DNA of 64,000 nt from Flavobacterium aquicola (GTDB taxonomy: Bacteria; Bacteroidota; Bacteroidia; Flavobacteriales; Flavobacteriaceae). Within the stretch, counting starts at the first letter, position 1. Every line of letters begins with the position of its first letter. The notes under the pieces are model-generated. The model was not told where the DNA came from. It ran no database searches and was given only the letters and a program-made list of their open reading frames with translations. The stretch lies in NCBI RefSeq assembly GCF_003385115.1, contig NZ_QUNI01000004.1, positions 124,001 to 188,000 on the forward strand, read 5' to 3'. Positions 17,842 through 25,906 of this stretch are shown in pieces. The position numbers and the translations under genes were made by a program.

Positions 17842-18864
17842 TTATTTTTCTAGATAAAGGTAGCTTGTACCACCACTCCCCGTCTTTCTCAAGCGTATTT
17901 TTGAATTATTAAACTCTAATAATTCCCAGTTAACAGCATTCAGTTCTCCAAGTGATCCTGAACTGAAATTTATTTCTAACTGCTGTACTCCATACACAGA
18001 AGTAATTTCCCATTGACCTGTTTCCGAAACACTTTCTTTTGAAGCAACAACTGATTTATCACTTTTAAATACAAATGAATAACCGCTGTAAGATGAAGTT
18101 TTATCGGAATCTGCAAAGAAATACGGTATTATCCAAGAACCCATTGAGAGTGTCTGCGCAAAATTATATGAAGCAATATTATTTTCCGGACAGTTAGCTA
18201 TTGCATATTTAATAGCATTTTCGAAATCAAGATTACTTGTAATTGATTTTGTCTGATTATTATAATCTTTTATCGAAATTGGATACTGCAGGGAAATATA
18301 TTGGTTGTCATTCATGTTTTTTATAAAACTAAAAAATGACTGATCACTTACTATTGAAACAGAACTTCCTATCTGATTGGAACTGTTATAAATATTTATA
18401 GTTATAGGATATTTAATATTTAGTCCGTTGATTTTTGCCAAAAGATCAGGATAAAGATTCCAATAATCAATCAAGTCATTAAAATCAGCTTGATTGGGAA
18501 TAAATTTTTCGATGTAATTATAATACACCATTGTTACCGGAAAATCTATTTTTACAATATCATCATCTGCGCCACTGGCATTTATATTATCCAATACTTT
18601 TTGATAATCGGCTGAAGAATTAAGTGCAATCTGTTCATTATTGACAGTAACCGTATATGGAAACTTAATCGTGCAGTAACTAGAATCATCAATTACATTG
18701 TCCTGCACAGTAGGAACCATAGCAACTCTCTGCAGATACGTTGTTAATGGAGAAACGTTCGTTACTGTGTCCTGTGTATTAGTAGTCTGCTCATCGATTT
18801 CATTTTGACAAGAGAATAAAAACAGAAAGATAAGTATAGAAAAATATTTTTTCAAAGACAGCAT
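17842..18864 (-). CDS. Putative lipoprotein, function unknown
   Basis: About 340 residues. The ATG at 18864 is preferred over one at 18975 because it gives a lipoprotein signal directly (MLSLKKYFSILIFLFLFSCQ, lipidated at the cysteine). The mature part contains three imperfect repeats of a pattern like IKFPYTVTVNNEQIALNS followed by a Y-x-x-V/A-L-x-x-I segment (also IDFPVTMVYYN and LQYPISIKDYN), and ends in a lipocalin-like beta-rich region (GQWEITSVYGVQQLEINF). I do not recognise a named family. It is divergent from the ECF sigma gene and is preceded by a copy of the motif also found before fecR and the OB-fold gene, so it likely belongs to that regulon. Confidence 0.75.
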   Translation of the reverse strand: MLSLKKYFSILIFLFLFSCQNEIDEQTTNTQDTVTNVSPLTTYLQRVAMVPTVQDNVIDDSSYCTIKFPYTVTVNNEQIALNSSADYQKVLDNINASGADDDIVKIDFPVTMVYYNYIEKFIPNQADFNDLIDYWNLYPDLLAKINGLNIKYPITINIYNSSNQIGSSVSIVSDQSFFSFIKNMNDNQYISLQYPISIKDYNNQTKSITSNLDFENAIKYAIANCPENNIASYNFAQTLSMGSWIIPYFFADSDKTSSYSGYSFVFKSDKSVVASKESVSETGQWEITSVYGVQQLEINFSSGSLGELNAVNWELLEFNNSKIRLRKTGSGGTSYLYLEK

Positions 18865-18987: not shown

Positions 18988-19016
18988 TAAAACAATCGGC
19001 TTTGCTTTTACCCTAC
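18988..19016 (-). promoter_or_regulatory. ECF-type promoter, copy 1 (toward the lipoprotein)
   Basis: Read on the minus strand: GTAGGGTAA (19016-19008), 12 bases, TTGTTTTA (18995-18988). The same two boxes with the same 12-base spacing occur at 19582-19610 and 23140-23168 on the plus strand. It points away from the sigma gene toward the lipoprotein gene; the distance to its ATG is about 124 bases. Confidence 0.65.
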
Positions 19017-19031
19017 TTAAATAAAAACAAA

Positions 19032-19039
19032 TACTTTTG
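19032..19039 (+). promoter_or_regulatory. -7 element for the ECF sigma gene
   Basis: TACTTTTG matches TAnnTTTG and lies 25 bases before the sigma factor ATG, suggesting housekeeping transcription of the sigma gene itself. No well-placed -33 TTTG is seen. Confidence 0.4.
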
Positions 19040-19063
19040 TATTTTACAAACTGTTAAAACTAA

Positions 19064-19585
19064 ATGCCAAATAACCCCGAATCAAATACTTGTGACGAAA
19101 TCATTTTTTCGTCTTTTTTCAAAAGTCATATAAAAGCACTTCGCAATTTTCTTTTTTACAAATTTGGTAATTTAGAGAAAGCAGAAGATGTGGCGCAGGA
19201 AGCTTTTGTAAAACTTTGGCAAAACTGTTCTGCTGTACCACTGGAAAAAGCAAAATCATATGTTTATACGATTGCAAATAACAGCAGTCTCAATGAAATT
19301 GCACATCAGAAAGTAGTTTTGAAATATGAAAAAGATTTCAGCGGTTTGGATAGAACAAACCAGAATCCTGAATATTTATTGGAAGAAAAACAATTTCAGG
19401 ACAAACTTCTGAAAGCCATTGGAAACTTAAACGAAAAGCAGCGAACGGCCTTCTTAATGAATCGGATTGACGGAAAGAAATACAGCGAAATTGCCACAGA
19501 TTTAAATATAAGCGTAAAAGCTGTTGAAAAACGTATTCACTTGGCTTTAGTAAGCTTACGCAAAGAAATTGATCTATTAAAGTAG
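19064..19585 (+). CDS. ECF sigma-70 factor (FecI-like)
   Basis: A 173-residue ECF sigma factor. Region 2 is seen in FYKFGNLEKAEDVAQEAFVK and LWQN (core binding and -10 recognition), and region 4 in LNEKQRTAFLMNRIDGKKYS followed by the helix-turn-helix EIATDLNISVKAVEKRIHLA. It is followed by a FecR anti-sigma gene and a TonB receptor, the standard cell-surface-signalling order. The stop codon TAG lies inside a GTAGGGTAA box, so a promoter for fecR begins at the very end of this gene. Confidence 0.94.
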   Translation: MPNNPESNTCDEIIFSSFFKSHIKALRNFLFYKFGNLEKAEDVAQEAFVKLWQNCSAVPLEKAKSYVYTIANNSSLNEIAHQKVVLKYEKDFSGLDRTNQNPEYLLEEKQFQDKLLKAIGNLNEKQRTAFLMNRIDGKKYSEIATDLNISVKAVEKRIHLALVSLRKEIDLLK

Positions 19586-19610
19586 GGTAAATTTAGTTCT
19601 AACTGTTTTA
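19582..19610 (+). promoter_or_regulatory. ECF-type promoter, copy 2 (before fecR)
   Basis: GTAGGGTAA (19582-19590), 12 bases, CTGTTTTA (19603-19610), ending 20 bases before the fecR ATG. The first box overlaps the sigma gene stop codon. It is identical in layout to the copies at 18988-19016 and 23140-23168. Confidence 0.7.
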
Positions 19611-19629
19611 ATTACATAATACCAGCACA

Positions 19630-20529
19630 ATGGAAAAAAATCACTTATTGGCTAAATGGCTTAACGATGATTTATCTAAAGATGAATTAGCAGCATTTGA
19701 AGCGAGTCCTGATTTCGAAAAATATCAAAAAATAAAAAACTATACTAATCATCTGATTGTTGATGATCTGGATGAAAACAGTATGCTCTCCAATATTCTT
19801 AAACAGAAAAAAGAGGTTCCAAAGGTAATTCCTTTGTATAAAAAATGGGTTTTTAGAGCTGCCGCTGTTTTTGTACTTGCACTTGGAATTACATTTGCAT
19901 TTAAAACTCTGGGGCAACAGACAGAAACTGCTGATTTTGGAAAAAAAACAACTTTCTCATTACCTGATAATTCTGAAGTGGTGCTAAATTCTGGTTCAGA
20001 AATACAGTATAAAAAATGGAACTGGGATAATCACCGTCATCTTGAACTCAAAGGAGAAGCATATTTTAGAGTATCAAAAGGAAGACGTTTTGAAGTACAG
20101 ACCAGATTAGGGAAAGTATCAGTTTTAGGAACTCAATTTAACGTTAAAACCAGAAAAAACAGGTTTGATGTAGTTTGTTATGAAGGACGTGTCAAAGTAA
20201 ATTATGCAAATACTGAAATCCTTTTAACACATGGACAAGGCGTTAGTTTTGAAAACGGAAAACAGCTTAACCTGAAAATATCCTCATTGAAACCGGAATG
20301 GATTGACAATCAAATTTGTTTTTACAAGGACAACATTACAACTCTTTTAGAAGAAGTGGAAAGACAATACAATATAGACATTCAATTAAACACAAAGGAT
20401 ACCACTTCATTATTTACAGGAAAACTGCCCGCTAAAAATTTGGATACAGCTTTGCATATTATTGCTGTAACCTATCATTTGAAGGTTCAAAAAGTCTCAA
20501 AAAACAAAATAATTATTGACGAACAATAA
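19630..20529 (+). CDS. FecR family anti-sigma factor
   Basis: A 299-residue single-pass inner membrane regulator. A short cytoplasmic sigma-binding part (about residues 1-75) is followed by one membrane segment near residues 78-96 (FRAAAVFVLALGITFAF). The periplasmic FecR domain follows (TTFSLPDNSEVVLNSGSEIQ, then GEAYFRVSKG and VLGTQFNVK), and then a C-terminal DUF4974-type domain (LLEEVERQYNIDIQLNTKD). It relays the state of the TonB receptor to the sigma factor. It directly abuts the receptor gene (stop codon then ATG with no gap). Confidence 0.94.
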   Translation: MEKNHLLAKWLNDDLSKDELAAFEASPDFEKYQKIKNYTNHLIVDDLDENSMLSNILKQKKEVPKVIPLYKKWVFRAAAVFVLALGITFAFKTLGQQTETADFGKKTTFSLPDNSEVVLNSGSEIQYKKWNWDNHRHLELKGEAYFRVSKGRRFEVQTRLGKVSVLGTQFNVKTRKNRFDVVCYEGRVKVNYANTEILLTHGQGVSFENGKQLNLKISSLKPEWIDNQICFYKDNITTLLEEVERQYNIDIQLNTKDTTSLFTGKLPAKNLDTALHIIAVTYHLKVQKVSKNKIIIDEQ

Positions 20530-23064
20530 ATGTTGCTGCCCAAACAATTTCATTTTTTGTTTATCCTATTTTTCTTTGTCCTTGGTCTTTATGCTCAGGA
20601 CGAAGAAAAAACTGTGCCTATTAATAAAGTTATAAATGATATTGAAAAGCTGCATCAGGTGAGTTTTAATTATCTGGAGGGTGATATTGCAGGGCTTCAA
20701 TTAACTCCTCCAAAAAAAACACTTTCTTTAGATCAAAAACTGCATTATCTGGCAAAAAAAACAAATTTGTCTTTTGAAAATATTGGAAACAAATTTATTA
20801 ATATTTATAAAAATAAAACTGAGGCCCAAATATTATGCGGTTACATATATTCTGCTGCAGATCGAAAACCTATTGAAGATGCCAATATAATTTTAAACAG
20901 CAAAATCCAGATAACAACGGATTCTAAAGGATATTTTGAATTCAAAAAAGAGAACACAAACACACTTTTAATCAGCCATATCGGATTTACAGCCAAAAAA
21001 ATTTCGGCTGACAACCAAGATTCGAAAAGCTGTCTTCAAATTGTATTAGAACCCGAAATCACAGAATTAAAAGAAATAAAAGCTAATTCAATTCTTGCCT
21101 CGGGTATTTCAAAAAACACTGACGGCGCGTTTGAAATTAAGCCTAAAAAGTTTGGTATTTTACCTGGACTTATAGAACCCGATGCTTTGCAGGCCATGCA
21201 GCAGATTCCCGGCGTGAACAGTATCGATGAAAGTGTTTCAAGCATCAACGTGCGCGGCGGTACACATGATCAGAATCTATTTTTGTGGAATGGAATCCGA
21301 ATGTATCAAACGGGGCATTTTTTCGGATTAATATCTGTTTTTAATCCTAATCTGGCACATACTATTTCTATTTATAAAAACGGAAGTTCAGCATTTTTTG
21401 GAGAAAGCGTGTCGAGTGTCGTAGCTATTTCTTCAACACCCGAAACGCTGGAAAAAAATAGTTTCAGTGCTGGAATAAATATGATTAATGCTGATGTTTA
21501 TGGGAAGTATAACCTTTCCAAAAAGAGTTTTATCGAAATTTCGGCACGTAAATCCATTACTGATTTCGCAGAAACATTAACATATAAAGAATATTTCGAT
21601 AAAGTCTTTCAAAATACAACAATCACTGATTTTGCGAAGAATCAAAATGTAGATTATCAGAGCGATAAAAAATTCGGCTTCTATGATGCTACTTTCAAAT
21701 ATGCTCAAAAAATAGGCAATAAAGACCAAATTATACTCGATTTAATAACGATTCAAGACAAGCTGAAAGTTTTTCAGAGTGCAACGGCAAATAATATATA
21801 TAAATCTGAAAACAATACACTGCGTCAGCAAAATTATGGCGGTAATCTGTCGTGGAAAAGAAACTGGAACAGTTTTAACACCACAAAAATTAATATTTAT
21901 AATTCCGCCTACGCACTTTTGGGTAATCAAAACAACAGCGTCGGAAATCAAATCGTTATTCAGGAAAACACAGTTAACAATAATGGAGTTAATTTAGAAA
22001 ATCAGCATATTATCAGCTCGAAATTCAGTTTAAGTGATGGATACCAATTTAATGAAATGGGTATTACAAATTTAGAGCAGGTAACTAATCCGGATTTCTA
22101 TCGCAAAGTGAAAGACGTTCTGCGAACCCACGCCCTGATTGCAGAAGGAAAATACAGAGATACAATTGCCAGAATATATTTTAAGGCTGGGACAAGAATT
22201 AATTACATCGAAAAATTTAAAAAATACATTGTTGAACCCCGAATACAATTTAGTTACGGTATCAATAAAAATCTAAATTTAGAAATACTGGGAGAGCTGA
22301 AAAGCCAAAACTCTCAGCAGATTATTGATCTGCAGAAAGATTATTTCGGAATTGAAAAAAGACGCTGGATTGTTTCCAATAACACAACAATCCCTATCCA
22401 GAAAAGCAAGCAGATATCTTTTAGCCTATTTTATAAAAAAAATGACTGGCTTCTAGACATAGAAAATTTTTATAAAAAAGTTAACGGAATAACCACTGCC
22501 AGCCAGGGCTTTCAGAACCAGTTAGAATTTATCCGGACTACTGGTGATTATGAAATTTTAGGAACTGAAATATTAATTCAAAAAAAGCTGAATCATTTTC
22601 TTACTTGGCTGAGTTATACCTTTAACAACAATAATTATCATTTTGTGAATTACGAATTCAGCAGTTTCCCTAATAATTTTGAGTTAACTCACACTCTTTC
22701 ATGGGCGGTAACGTATGAAAAAAATAATTTCAAAATTGCCTTGGGGACAAAATGGTCTTCAGGCAGGCCAAAAACTTCTCCAGACATTTCAAAAATTGAT
22801 CTTTCGGATCCTGTAATAGTCTACAACAGGCCTAACAATACTAATCTGCATATTTTTTCGCAGGTTAATCTTTCCTCGACCTACAAATGGGAAACCGCAA
22901 ATGGGATTCAGTACAAAGTTGGGCTGTCTATTTTGAACATCTTAAACCGAAAAAATGAAATTAGCGAATACTACCGAATCAGTTCGTTAACAAATTCTAT
23001 CGAAGAAGTTGAAACTTTTGCACTGCAGAGAACTCCAAACATGAGTTTTAGAATCTCGCTATAA
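20530..23064 (+). CDS. TonB-dependent receptor with STN signalling domain (FecA-like)
   Basis: An 844-residue outer membrane transducer. Order: signal peptide (1-22, ending LYAQ), STN secretin/TonB domain (about 28-95), carboxypeptidase-regulatory-like beta-sandwich (about 100-180), plug (ALQAMQQIPGVNSIDESVSS, then INVRGGTHDQNLFLWNGIRM) and a 22-strand barrel ending in an aromatic strand (TPNMSFRISL). The STN domain contacts FecR and explains the adjacent sigma/anti-sigma pair. No SusD gene follows, so it is not a SusCD glycan importer. Ligand unknown; downstream genes are redox- and envelope-related. Confidence 0.92.
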   Translation: MLLPKQFHFLFILFFFVLGLYAQDEEKTVPINKVINDIEKLHQVSFNYLEGDIAGLQLTPPKKTLSLDQKLHYLAKKTNLSFENIGNKFINIYKNKTEAQILCGYIYSAADRKPIEDANIILNSKIQITTDSKGYFEFKKENTNTLLISHIGFTAKKISADNQDSKSCLQIVLEPEITELKEIKANSILASGISKNTDGAFEIKPKKFGILPGLIEPDALQAMQQIPGVNSIDESVSSINVRGGTHDQNLFLWNGIRMYQTGHFFGLISVFNPNLAHTISIYKNGSSAFFGESVSSVVAISSTPETLEKNSFSAGINMINADVYGKYNLSKKSFIEISARKSITDFAETLTYKEYFDKVFQNTTITDFAKNQNVDYQSDKKFGFYDATFKYAQKIGNKDQIILDLITIQDKLKVFQSATANNIYKSENNTLRQQNYGGNLSWKRNWNSFNTTKINIYNSAYALLGNQNNSVGNQIVIQENTVNNNGVNLENQHIISSKFSLSDGYQFNEMGITNLEQVTNPDFYRKVKDVLRTHALIAEGKYRDTIARIYFKAGTRINYIEKFKKYIVEPRIQFSYGINKNLNLEILGELKSQNSQQIIDLQKDYFGIEKRRWIVSNNTTIPIQKSKQISFSLFYKKNDWLLDIENFYKKVNGITTASQGFQNQLEFIRTTGDYEILGTEILIQKKLNHFLTWLSYTFNNNNYHFVNYEFSSFPNNFELTHTLSWAVTYEKNNFKIALGTKWSSGRPKTSPDISKIDLSDPVIVYNRPNNTNLHIFSQVNLSSTYKWETANGIQYKVGLSILNILNRKNEISEYYRISSLTNSIEEVETFALQRTPNMSFRISL

Positions 23065-23139
23065 CTCTTTCAATGCAAGATAGATAACAAAGTCCTGCTC
23101 TTCTTATTTTATTTTTTTTCAAAAAACAACAATTCTTTG

Positions 23140-23168
23140 GTAGGGTAATCTGCATCAAAGCTGTTTTA
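23140..23168 (+). promoter_or_regulatory. ECF-type promoter, copy 3 (before the OB-fold gene)
   Basis: GTAGGGTAA (23140-23148), 12 bases, CTGTTTTA (23161-23168), ending 25 bases before the ATG at 23194. Same boxes and spacing as the fecR promoter, so the downstream four-gene operon is probably driven by the same sigma factor. Confidence 0.7.
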
Positions 23169-23193: not shown

Positions 23194-23589
23194 ATGAAAC
23201 AAAAAAAAACAGCAATCGCAATTGCAGTGCTGCTTATAGCTGTTTCCGGAGGCATTTATTTTTATTACGGCTTTCTTTTTAAAGAAGCCCGGAACATAGA
23301 GACTGAAACCCCGGATGTAAGCTTAACCGCAGCACAATTAATTGAAGTTTATAACTCCGATCCAGAAAAAGCGAATTCATTGTATCTCAATAAAACAATT
23401 GAATTAAGAGGACAGGTAACCAAGGAAGCTGATTCGGTTATTACACTTGATAAATCTGTTTTTTGTCTTTTTACCAAAAAAATAAAAAAACAGCTTTTAA
23501 ATAAAAATGCAGTTCTGAAAGGCAAATGCATCGGGTATGACGAATTATTTCAGGAAATCAAACTAGACCAATGCACCATTATTAAATAA
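23194..23589 (+). CDS. Membrane-anchored OB-fold protein (tRNA_anti-like)
   Basis: A 131-residue protein with an N-terminal membrane anchor (AIAVLLIAVSGGIYFYYGFL) and a small OB-fold resembling the tRNA_anti-like family: YLNKTIELRGQVTKEADSVI, then KNAVLKGKCIGYDELFQEIK. Such anchored OB domains occur in Bacteroidota next to DUF5777, YceI and cytochrome genes; their function is not known. It is the first gene of a four-gene unit (gaps of 16, 21 and 5 bases) preceded by an ECF-type promoter. Confidence 0.75.
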   Translation: MKQKKTAIAIAVLLIAVSGGIYFYYGFLFKEARNIETETPDVSLTAAQLIEVYNSDPEKANSLYLNKTIELRGQVTKEADSVITLDKSVFCLFTKKIKKQLLNKNAVLKGKCIGYDELFQEIKLDQCTIIK

Positions 23590-23605: not shown

Positions 23606-24448
23606 ATGAAAAAATTCCTAATCCCGCTCTGTCTTTTTTTTGCTGTAGCAGCACATTCGCAAGATGATTTACTAAAAAGTATTGATTCTTCTCAGGTAGA
23701 AGAAAGCTACTCTACAGCAACTTTCAAAGCCTTACAGCTTGTAACCCTGCAAACAACAAAAATGCCGGCAAAAAAAGAATTCTATTTTGTTGTTTCACAT
23801 CGCTTTGGTACTGTTAAAGATGGTCTGGACAGTTTTTTTGGTCTGGACAACGCTACTACTAAACTTGGAGGTATTTACGGAGTTACAGATTGGTTATCTG
23901 TCAGCCTTTCGAGACACACATTAAACAAAATGTATGAAACCGGAGCAAAATATCGAATGGCGAGACAAGACGCTCATTTTCCTGTAGACATTGTTGGTTA
24001 CAGCGTTGCGGATATTAATACTTTTTTGGAAGAAGATCAATATCCCGGTTTAGAATCTAAGCACCGCATGACCTATGTACAGCAGCTTTTGATATCCCGA
24101 AAAATTAGTCAAAAACTGTCATTGGAACTAGTACCGTCATTTATACATAAAAACCTTTACAATCCCGAATTAGAAAATGATAACCAGTTTTCTTTCGGAG
24201 GAGGCGGGCGTTATAAAATTACCAAAAGATTATCAGTGAATTTAGAGTACATGCACAACTTTGACAACCCTGGATTTTATGAAAACCCTTTATCGGTAGG
24301 TCTGGATGTAGAAACCGGCGGGCATGTTTTTCAGCTGATATTTACTAATTCACAATCTATGAGCGAGAGCGGATACCTCACAAATGCATCAGGTGAATGG
24401 AATAAAGGAGATTTCTTTTTTGGATTTAACTTATACAGAGTATTCTAA
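23606..24448 (+). CDS. DUF5777-like outer membrane beta-barrel protein
   Basis: A 280-residue exported protein with a signal peptide (MKKFLIPLCLFFAVAAHSQ) and alternating beta-strands through the length. Family features include KEFYFVVSHRFGTVKDGLDS, FFGLDNATTKLGGIYGVTDW and a terminal strand FFFGFNLYRVF, as expected for a small barrel. The GVTDWLSVSLSRHTLNKMYE region is typical of DUF5777. The role is unknown. It is encoded between the OB-fold protein and a CxxCH lipoprotein in the same operon. Confidence 0.8.
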   Translation: MKKFLIPLCLFFAVAAHSQDDLLKSIDSSQVEESYSTATFKALQLVTLQTTKMPAKKEFYFVVSHRFGTVKDGLDSFFGLDNATTKLGGIYGVTDWLSVSLSRHTLNKMYETGAKYRMARQDAHFPVDIVGYSVADINTFLEEDQYPGLESKHRMTYVQQLLISRKISQKLSLELVPSFIHKNLYNPELENDNQFSFGGGGRYKITKRLSVNLEYMHNFDNPGFYENPLSVGLDVETGGHVFQLIFTNSQSMSESGYLTNASGEWNKGDFFFGFNLYRVF

Positions 24449-24469: not shown

Positions 24470-24850
24470 ATGAAAAAAACAATTGCACTTACTATTTTAC
24501 TGGCTGCACTTGCCAGCTGCAGCGATTCTGATACTTATCAAGAGATCGAAAAACCGCCAACTGATCCAGGAACTGGAACACCTCCAGTAACTACAGTTAA
24601 TTATACCAAAAATATAAAATCAATTATTGATGCCAATTGTGTTCCCTGCCACTCAAATGGAAGAGCCGCCTCTTTTAGACCTTTAACAACCTATGCTGAG
24701 GTTAAAGCGGCTATTGAAACCGCAGGCTTATTAAACCGTATTCAGCTGCAGAACGGACAGCAGGGACTTATGCCTCAAGGAGGAAGAATGTCTCAGACAA
24801 ATATTGATTTAATTGTAAAATGGAATACAGACGGACTAAAAGAAAAATAA
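24470..24850 (+). CDS. Small c-type cytochrome lipoprotein
   Basis: A 126-residue lipoprotein: signal MKKTIALTILLAALASCSDS with lipidation at Cys17, then a Pro/Thr-rich linker. A single haem-binding motif CVPCH follows in IIDANCVPCHSNGRAASF, and LMPQGG near the end can supply the axial methionine. This is the pattern of the haem-c domains commonly fused or paired with Bacteroidota surface proteins. It probably transfers electrons in the periplasm or outer membrane; the partner is unknown. It lies between the DUF5777 and YceI genes. Confidence 0.82.
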   Translation: MKKTIALTILLAALASCSDSDTYQEIEKPPTDPGTGTPPVTTVNYTKNIKSIIDANCVPCHSNGRAASFRPLTTYAEVKAAIETAGLLNRIQLQNGQQGLMPQGGRMSQTNIDLIVKWNTDGLKEK

Positions 24851-24855
24851 TCAGA

Positions 24856-25410
24856 ATGAAAAAAACATTTATCAATTTCTTTGTATTACTGCTGATTACT
24901 GCAGTACATACAGATTGTTTTGGACAAAAGCTGATAACTAAAACAGGCAGTATAAAATTTCAGGCATCTATGCCCTCGTATGAAGAAGTTGCTGCCGAAA
25001 ATAAAAGTGTTTCTGCCGTTTTGGAACAGTCGACCGGCGATTTTGCCGCCTTGGTTCTCATAAAAGGTTTTAGGTTTAAAGTGGCTTTAATGGAAGAGCA
25101 TTTCAACGAAAATTACATGGAATCCGAAAAGTTTTCGAAAGCAACATTCAAAGGTAAAATAGAAGATTTTAATGTTTCTGAAATTACAAATACTGCTAAA
25201 AATTTTACTTTAAAAGGAGACCTTACCGTTCACGGAAAAACAAAAGCAGTATCCGTAATTGTAAAAGTTTCTAAAACCGCTAGCGGTGTCAATGCTGTGG
25301 GCTCATTTGAAGTAAAACCCGAAGATTTTGACATTGAAATTCCCAGTGTGGTGAGTAAAAAAATAGCAGACAAAATAAAGATTGCTTACAATTTTACATT
25401 GTCCAAATAA
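24856..25410 (+). CDS. YceI family periplasmic protein
   Basis: About 184 residues. The start at 24856 yields a signal peptide (MKKTFINFFVLLLITAVHTD) and avoids overlap with the cytochrome gene. The lipocalin-like YceI fold is recognisable from the N-terminal TKTGSIKFQASMP strand, FNENYMESEKFSKATFKGKI, the FTLKGDLTVHGKTKAVSVIV block and the closing VVSKKIADKIKIAYNFTL. Members bind polyisoprenoid-type lipids in the periplasm. It is the last gene of the ECF-controlled operon and is followed by a strong terminator. Confidence 0.92.
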   Translation: MKKTFINFFVLLLITAVHTDCFGQKLITKTGSIKFQASMPSYEEVAAENKSVSAVLEQSTGDFAALVLIKGFRFKVALMEEHFNENYMESEKFSKATFKGKIEDFNVSEITNTAKNFTLKGDLTVHGKTKAVSVIVKVSKTASGVNAVGSFEVKPEDFDIEIPSVVSKKIADKIKIAYNFTLSK

Positions 25411-25504: not shown

Positions 25505-25906
25505 ATGATCTCTAAAAATTATACTGTTTCAGGGGAAGATGTAAATGATGTCATGATAATGGAAAGCAGCGCTTATAATTCGTACACTATAAGACTATTA
25601 TATAGTTTTTTATTTGATAACGGCTTTACGAGAGAGAAACTAAATTCTTTAAATTTAGGTTTACAGGAAGGACAGGAAGAATTTGTCTGTTATAAAAATC
25701 TAATGTTTACCGAATCTTTTTTCATCGAGATGAAATATTGTAAAATAGACGACAAAATCAGTGTTAAAAGCTCTTTTTTCAACTCTAAAAACGAACACTG
25801 TGCAGAAGTAACTAAAGAATTGCAATGGTATGATAACTTTAAAAAAGAAGTAATAACCACACCAGTTAAAATTCAGAATCATTTCAACTTAAACATAAGA
25901 GCATAA
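25505..25906 (+). CDS. Hotdog-fold thioesterase-like protein
   Basis: A 133-residue protein whose pattern fits an acyl-CoA/acyl-ACP thioesterase hotdog fold: MESSAYNSYTIRLLYSFLFD resembles the central-helix region, and the strands YKNLMFTESFFIEMKYCKID and DKISVKSSFFNSKNEHCAEV follow. The usual catalytic Asp of 4HBT proteins is not obvious. It is isolated, with a terminator before it and a 200-base non-coding gap after it. The assignment is by pattern only. Confidence 0.55.
   Translation: MISKNYTVSGEDVNDVMIMESSAYNSYTIRLLYSFLFDNGFTREKLNSLNLGLQEGQEEFVCYKNLMFTESFFIEMKYCKIDDKISVKSSFFNSKNEHCAEVTKELQWYDNFKKEVITTPVKIQNHFNLNIRA

Follow-up and report, generated by a model that had tools for sequence, protein, structure and literature searches.

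The 64,000-nucleotide stretch of Flavobacterium aquicola DNA analysed here (the window) carries a FecI-type extracytoplasmic function (ECF) sigma factor gene followed by genes for a FecR transducer and a TonB-dependent receptor, with a divergent lipoprotein gene on one side and an operon for OB-fold, DUF5777, cytochrome-like and YceI-like proteins on the other. Three copies of one two-box element lie at this locus, and we consider it highly likely that they are the -35/-10 promoters used by RNA polymerase with the sigma factor of 19064-19585. Very probably, a single sharply defined promoter allows this sigma factor to switch on the lipoprotein, its own inhibitor and receptor, and the neighbouring redox operon. 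The sites, their spacing, orientation and conservation and their link to the sigma gene can be read directly from the DNA.

Three copies of a two-box element at one locus

The original prediction, made from the letters of the window, described three sites of the form GTAGGGTAA-N12-YTGTTTTA with exactly 12 bases between the boxes, and each was recovered exactly, at the coordinates and on the strands in Table 1. Each also faces a gene start as predicted, its second box ending 123 nucleotides (nt) short of the ATG at 18864 for the lipoprotein, 19 nt short of that at 19630 for fecR and 25 nt short of that at 23194 for the OB-fold protein, and the claim that none faces the sigma gene was borne out in the window. 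At promoter 2 the first box, with its GTAGGG beginning at 19582, shares bases with the sigma stop codon (TAG at 19583-19585). The element has the form of an ECF promoter, with two boxes at a fixed spacing that are common to several units. The spacers were said to be dissimilar, and pairwise they share only 4, 1 and 3 of 12 bases, which is chance level.

The whole-genome pattern count gave three exact matches in 5.12 Mb, all inside 4.2 kb at this locus, with no other exact copy. Shuffled windows, counted at up to three mismatches, contained a mean of 0.68 matches and a maximum of 3, a number reached in 4 of 100 shuffles; the three sites of the window have 0 mismatches. A wider pattern, GTAGGGTWW-N13-TGTYWTA, matched five times in the genome, and its reversed form did not match.

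Two further sites were considered and set aside. The only match with one mismatch in the whole genome, at G000:C15:93986 (L053:5987-6015), lies about 245 nt before hemA. It was not counted as a regulon member because the first codons of a gene running divergently, of AraC type by eye, contain it, and because it recurs in genomes G139 and G146, which are without the sigma gene at 1e-25. The motif-like site at G000:C10:77308 (L056:7309-7337), 95 nt before a gene for a 346-residue lipoprotein-like protein, was likewise not added; relatives of this protein at 1e-40 occur in three of 150 genomes, its own included, making it rare in the genus.

Conservation and association with the sigma gene

We compared orthologous intergenic regions using 73 Flavobacterium loci that had been fetched with the lipoprotein and not with the motif; the sigma gene adjoins the lipoprotein gene in 72. 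Allowing up to three mismatches and any spacer from 7 to 17, a site was present toward the lipoprotein in 72 of 72 loci, toward fecR in 72 of 72 and toward the cargo operon in 70 of 72. All had a spacer of 12, a length that emerged although it had been left free, while the opposite-strand controls gave 0, 0 and 4 of 72. The box consensus was matched without mismatch in 51, 65 and 51 loci for sites 1 to 3. Information content, calculated without sites of more than two mismatches, was 1.98 bits per column in the first box and 1.83-1.89 in the second, compared with 1.11-1.29 in the spacers and 0.69-1.35 in the flanks. Spacers were 28% identical between the sites of one locus and 70% identical between loci at a given site.

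A second set was gathered with the sigma factor, which gave 90 matches in 77 of 150 genomes of the genus; 84 loci were taken, including the window and some fetched by the motif, and were scored under the same mismatch and spacer limits. An upstream site facing away from the sigma gene was found in 67 of 84 (65 with spacer 12; control 4) and a site toward fecR in 69 of 84 (68 with spacer 12; control 1). Among the 61 loci chosen by the sigma factor alone, window included, scored at up to two mismatches with the spacer fixed at 12, sites were present upstream in 41, downstream in 36, on either side in 46 and on both in 31. From other genera, the 28 loci with the best scores had an upstream site in 21 (19 with spacer 12; control 0) and a site toward fecR in 13 (all with spacer 12; control 1). 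Sites toward the sigma gene itself occurred in just four of the 84 genus loci and none of the 28 family loci at three mismatches; by this count the sigma gene is apparently not under its own promoter.

The position of the fecR-facing site is similarly constrained. Of 50 such sites, 48 leave 16-22 nt between the second box and the fecR ATG and the other two leave 5 and 8 nt, which suggests a fecR leader of about ten nucleotides. At two loci (L060:3991-5571 and L090:4108-5676) a gene of 522-526 codons separates sigma from fecR, and it is this gene that the second promoter faces. Its product combines propeller-like repeats with a type IX secretion tail, Pfam having been run on the L060 copy.

Presence of the third site goes with the cargo genes. 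The receptor end could be placed in 74 of the 84 loci, the ten with no complete receptor in the fetched stretch being omitted. Where the next gene encodes an OB-fold, Lipoprotein_15 (PF03640) or Rieske protein, a site follows the receptor in 21 of 22 loci, always with spacer 12; the other 52 loci have one in nine cases at three mismatches, spaced by 12 in three cases. On the opposite strand, taken as control, the count was 1 of 74. The order OB-DUF5777-cytochrome-YceI was found in 33 of the 72 lipoprotein-selected loci and the same order preceded by Lipoprotein_15 in 37. Three loci (L062, L081, L082) have separate promoter copies before the Lipoprotein_15-type gene and the OB gene, and at L071:4880-5302 and L076:9344-9763 a promoter site precedes a Rieske gene.

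Across genomes, a match with at most one mismatch was found in 65 of 77 that carry the sigma gene versus 9 of 73 that do not. The mean number of matches per genome was 2.10 with the sigma gene and 0.14 without, compared with 0.25 and 0.11 for the reversed pattern, relatedness not being removed from these figures. The other two FecI/FecR pairs of the F. aquicola genome had no GTAGGG in the stretches inspected, and a related clade of six sigma factors is without the motif, its best sites having 5-7 mismatches. In four of the six loci of this motif-less FecI-type clade (L170-L172, L175, L181, L182), the next long open reading frame after the receptor has 511-526 codons.

Second-box variants and alternative explanations

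Variation was found in the second box. In a clade of 15 sigma factors, TTGTCTTA occurs on one or both sides for 14, and the fifteenth has TTGTCCTG; separately from this clade, L165 and L166 have TTGTCCTA, TTGTCCTT, TTGTCTTA and TTGTCTCA. The 15-sigma clade also has at least eight TTGTCTTA sites unlinked to the locus, and all eight that were fetched precede one orthologous gene, encoding a His/Cys-rich protein of 153-170 residues (L329-L336; also L065, L068 and L085). The start of this protein resembles a signal peptide by eye, and the copies are 48-63% identical to a reference copy that is itself one of the eight. In genomes G036 and G051 the unlinked site lies more than 0.5 Mb from the sigma gene on the same contig. 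The unlinked sites carry the clade's own second box, and their placement before one orthologous gene argues for recognition in trans; a purely local explanation is insufficient for them. We tentatively propose, as a possibility that we hold to be the less probable one, that the first box (GTAGGG) and the spacer stayed fixed in this FecI-type clade, that the second box changed from TTGTTTTA to the TTGTC type in two separate branches and that the controlled genes were exchanged, one branch having the envelope redox operon and the other the unlinked gene for the His/Cys-rich protein. Electron transfer in the envelope, instead of the import of nutrients, would then be under surface sensing, and the inhibitor would be one of the targets.

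Several observations weigh against assigning the sites to this sigma factor as its promoters. The third site is missing in two of the 72 lipoprotein-selected loci, and at sites 1 and 3 conservation of the upstream flank is roughly equal to that of the spacer. No site was found at three mismatches, upstream and toward fecR respectively, in 17 and 15 of the 84 genus loci and in 7 and 15 of the 28 family loci. At one mismatch, 12 of the 77 sigma-bearing genomes lack a match, nine of the 73 sigma-less genomes carry one, and the site before hemA recurs in two genomes of the latter kind. L138 and L104, outside the C-type clades, have one TGTCTTA site each. No residue of sigma region 2 was found to co-vary with the exchange of T and C in the second box; the residue that best shares this change is number 141, within the region-4 domain. 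Finally, most loci are related by descent, so that the counts are not independent.

This shared descent is also what could favour chance, or DNA kept by common ancestry without function, as the source of the pattern. We find that scarcely credible, given that the genome has just three exact copies, all at this locus, that the boxes are more conserved than spacers and flanks, and that the sites persist in other genera despite diverged spacers. The boxes could instead be the operator of a DNA-binding regulator, co-occurring with the sigma gene only through gene neighbourhood. This is improbable in view of the asymmetric two-box form with its rigid 12-nt spacer, the orientation of the sites toward gene starts with near-empty opposite strands, the narrow range of distances to the fecR ATG, and the unlinked sites, where all eight fetched carry the second box of their own clade. 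A promoter read by another ECF sigma factor, or by several including this one, overlaps with our reading. Cross-recognition is conceivable, since a TGT-type second box seems to be common to ECF promoters of Bacteroidota, and the matches in sigma-less genomes fit with it; set against this are the strong co-occurrence of the match with this sigma gene, the second-box version that mostly tracks the sigma clade, and the other FecI/FecR loci of the genome, where the first box is lacking, and we regard it as unlikely.

Promoters recognized by the sigma factor of 19064-19585 are thus the reading we retain. Collectively, conservation in loci chosen independently of the motif upholds the predicted bipartite ECF promoter linking three units, and co-occurrence, the other FecI/FecR pairs and the unlinked matching sites support, at the level of sequence, its predicted assignment to this sigma factor.

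Genes of the locus and relation to known systems

Table 1. Features of the sigma factor locus, in window coordinates.
Feature	Coordinates	Strand	Remarks
Candidate promoter 1	18988..19016	-	GTAGGGTAA-N12-TTGTTTTA, toward lipoprotein gene; exact match
Candidate promoter 2	19582..19610	+	GTAGGGTAA-N12-CTGTTTTA, toward fecR; exact match
Candidate promoter 3	23140..23168	+	GTAGGGTAA-N12-CTGTTTTA, toward OB/DUF5777/cytochrome/YceI operon; exact match
Lipoprotein, 340 residues	17842..18864	-	No Pfam family; C-terminal part possibly lipocalin-like barrel
Candidate -7 element (TAnnTTTG) of a housekeeping promoter for sigma	19032..19039	+	TACTTTTG
ECF sigma factor, FecI type	19064..19585	+	Sigma70_r2, Sigma70_r4_2
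FecR-type anti-sigma/signal transducer	19630..20529	+	PF04773 and PF16344
TonB-dependent receptor	20530..23064	+	Plug and CarboxypepD_reg-like domain; directly after fecR
OB-fold (tRNA_anti-like) protein	23194..23589	+	PF12869
DUF5777 beta-barrel protein	23606..24448	+	PF19089
c-type cytochrome-like protein	24470..24850	+	Cytochrome_CBB3 23.8 bits, under the cut-off of 27; CVPCH in translation
YceI-like protein	24820..25410	+	PF04264

The genes are those of a FecI/FecR/TonB-receptor signalling system: the sigma factor has regions 2 and 4 only, the FecR transducer is encoded immediately 3' of it, and the receptor belongs to the same unit as fecR, in a gene order that is the same in most mapped orthologous loci. 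At the receptor N-terminus of the window the STN (13.7 bits, cut-off 28.4) and FecR_C (18.9 bits, cut-off 24.4) matches are both sub-threshold; one of four orthologs exceeds the FecR_C cut-off (30.2 bits), and no PDB relative was found below E 0.5. The lipoprotein model has a mean predicted local distance difference test (pLDDT) score of 58, with mainly residues 231-340 above 70. With that limited confidence, its best PDB match is a DUF4847 protein (E 1.9e-4), lipocalins come next, and the sequence weakly matches the same DUF4847 entry (E 0.54), a hint that the C-terminal part may form a lipocalin-like barrel. A 133-residue open reading frame with no Pfam family follows YceI (25505-25906) and is kept in six mapped orthologous loci.

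The sigma gene itself may be read from a housekeeping promoter. The TAnnTTTG consensus, described for Bacteroides fragilis and Flavobacterium johnsoniae (PMC7366714), occurs toward sigma in 51 of the 72 lipoprotein-selected loci versus 6 on the other strand, and in 40 versus 9 of 112 loci in the wider set. A TTTG at the usual -33 spacing before it was not found.

Recognition by this sigma factor, the transcription start positions, the course of signalling and its signal are our inference. The sigma factor would be made at a basal level from the candidate housekeeping promoter (TAnnTTTG at 19032) and retained by FecR. Binding of a ligand by the TonB-dependent receptor would be relayed to FecR, and the sigma factor would be released or activated to transcribe the divergent lipoprotein gene, fecR with the receptor gene, and the OB/DUF5777/cytochrome c/YceI operon. 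As the inhibitor and the receptor are targets and the sigma factor is not, the loop would raise sensing and restrain the sigma factor together. An electron-transfer output is suggested by the operon products, which look like envelope proteins, several of redox families.

Similar to the Escherichia coli FecI/FecR/FecA system, the locus combines an ECF sigma factor, a FecR transducer and a TonB-dependent receptor, and the sigma factor is apparently no target of itself. According to the consulted part of a review, fecIR transcription is not autoregulated (PMC9249621), and FecI-like ECF sigma factors are named as exceptions to positive autoregulation in the portion consulted of PMC8103513. Contrary to E. 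coli Fec, however, a sigma-type promoter lies here between sigma and fecR, so that the anti-sigma factor and the receptor are predicted targets, and the divergent lipoprotein and the redox operon are added.

Promoter motif 2 of Bacteroides thetaiotaomicron and the SigW-1/SigH-1 promoters likewise have two boxes, with a -30/-10 element. The -30/-10 motif has been proposed for ECF sigma factors, and TGTT is found near -10 at SigW-1 targets (PMC7366714, PMC12596196); in the excerpts used, the SigW-1 motif is given as not significant in its paper (PMC7366714 / PMC12596196). Unlike here, the sections of text compared do not spell out a GTAGGG first box.

The prediction also mentioned GTAGGGT-like boxes near other Bacteroidota FecI/FecR loci. 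These hold at the nearest family loci, and looser relatives were found across the phylum, in a set of 70 mostly high-scoring FecR loci that includes the genus and family studied here, 55 of them with a sigma-like gene just upstream. TGTNWTA occurs within 90 nt before fecR in 26 of 55, versus 5 on the other strand and a mean of 6.8 (maximum 14) in shuffles. GGGTA-N14-TGTNWTA, a pattern chosen after looking, precedes fecR in 6 of 55 versus 0 on the other strand. In this survey the near-identical L210, L236 and L244 share one match and are each included. A promoter between sigma and fecR may thus be widespread in Bacteroidota. Within the loci compared, GTAGGGTAA-N12-YTGTTTTA and the redox cargo are particular to this clade, and the locus is a sharply delimited example of an FecI-type promoter architecture that seems to extend more widely in Bacteroidota.

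This kind of signalling system is already known; the regulon and its consensus were not met in the literature searched. Among the matches listed there was no description of either, published ECF group motifs lying outside the comparison, and GTAGGG, ECF sigma and Bacteroidetes never appeared all together; in the part of PMC7906972 consulted, GTAGGG is a primer only. These searches also gave no paper on Flavobacterium FecI/FecR start sites and none on DUF5777.

Bacteroidota can carry about 50 ECF sigma factors (PMC12596196, as excerpted), and as of 2020 no promoter was known for those of B. thetaiotaomicron, according to the consulted portion of PMC7366714. Because few ECF promoters of the phylum are apparently defined, a sharp, testable consensus matters. 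The natural variant series across genera provides material for dissecting sigma-promoter matching, and, if our reading is true, surface signalling would govern an envelope operon that has received little study (DUF5777, cytochrome c, YceI and sometimes Rieske or Lipoprotein_15).

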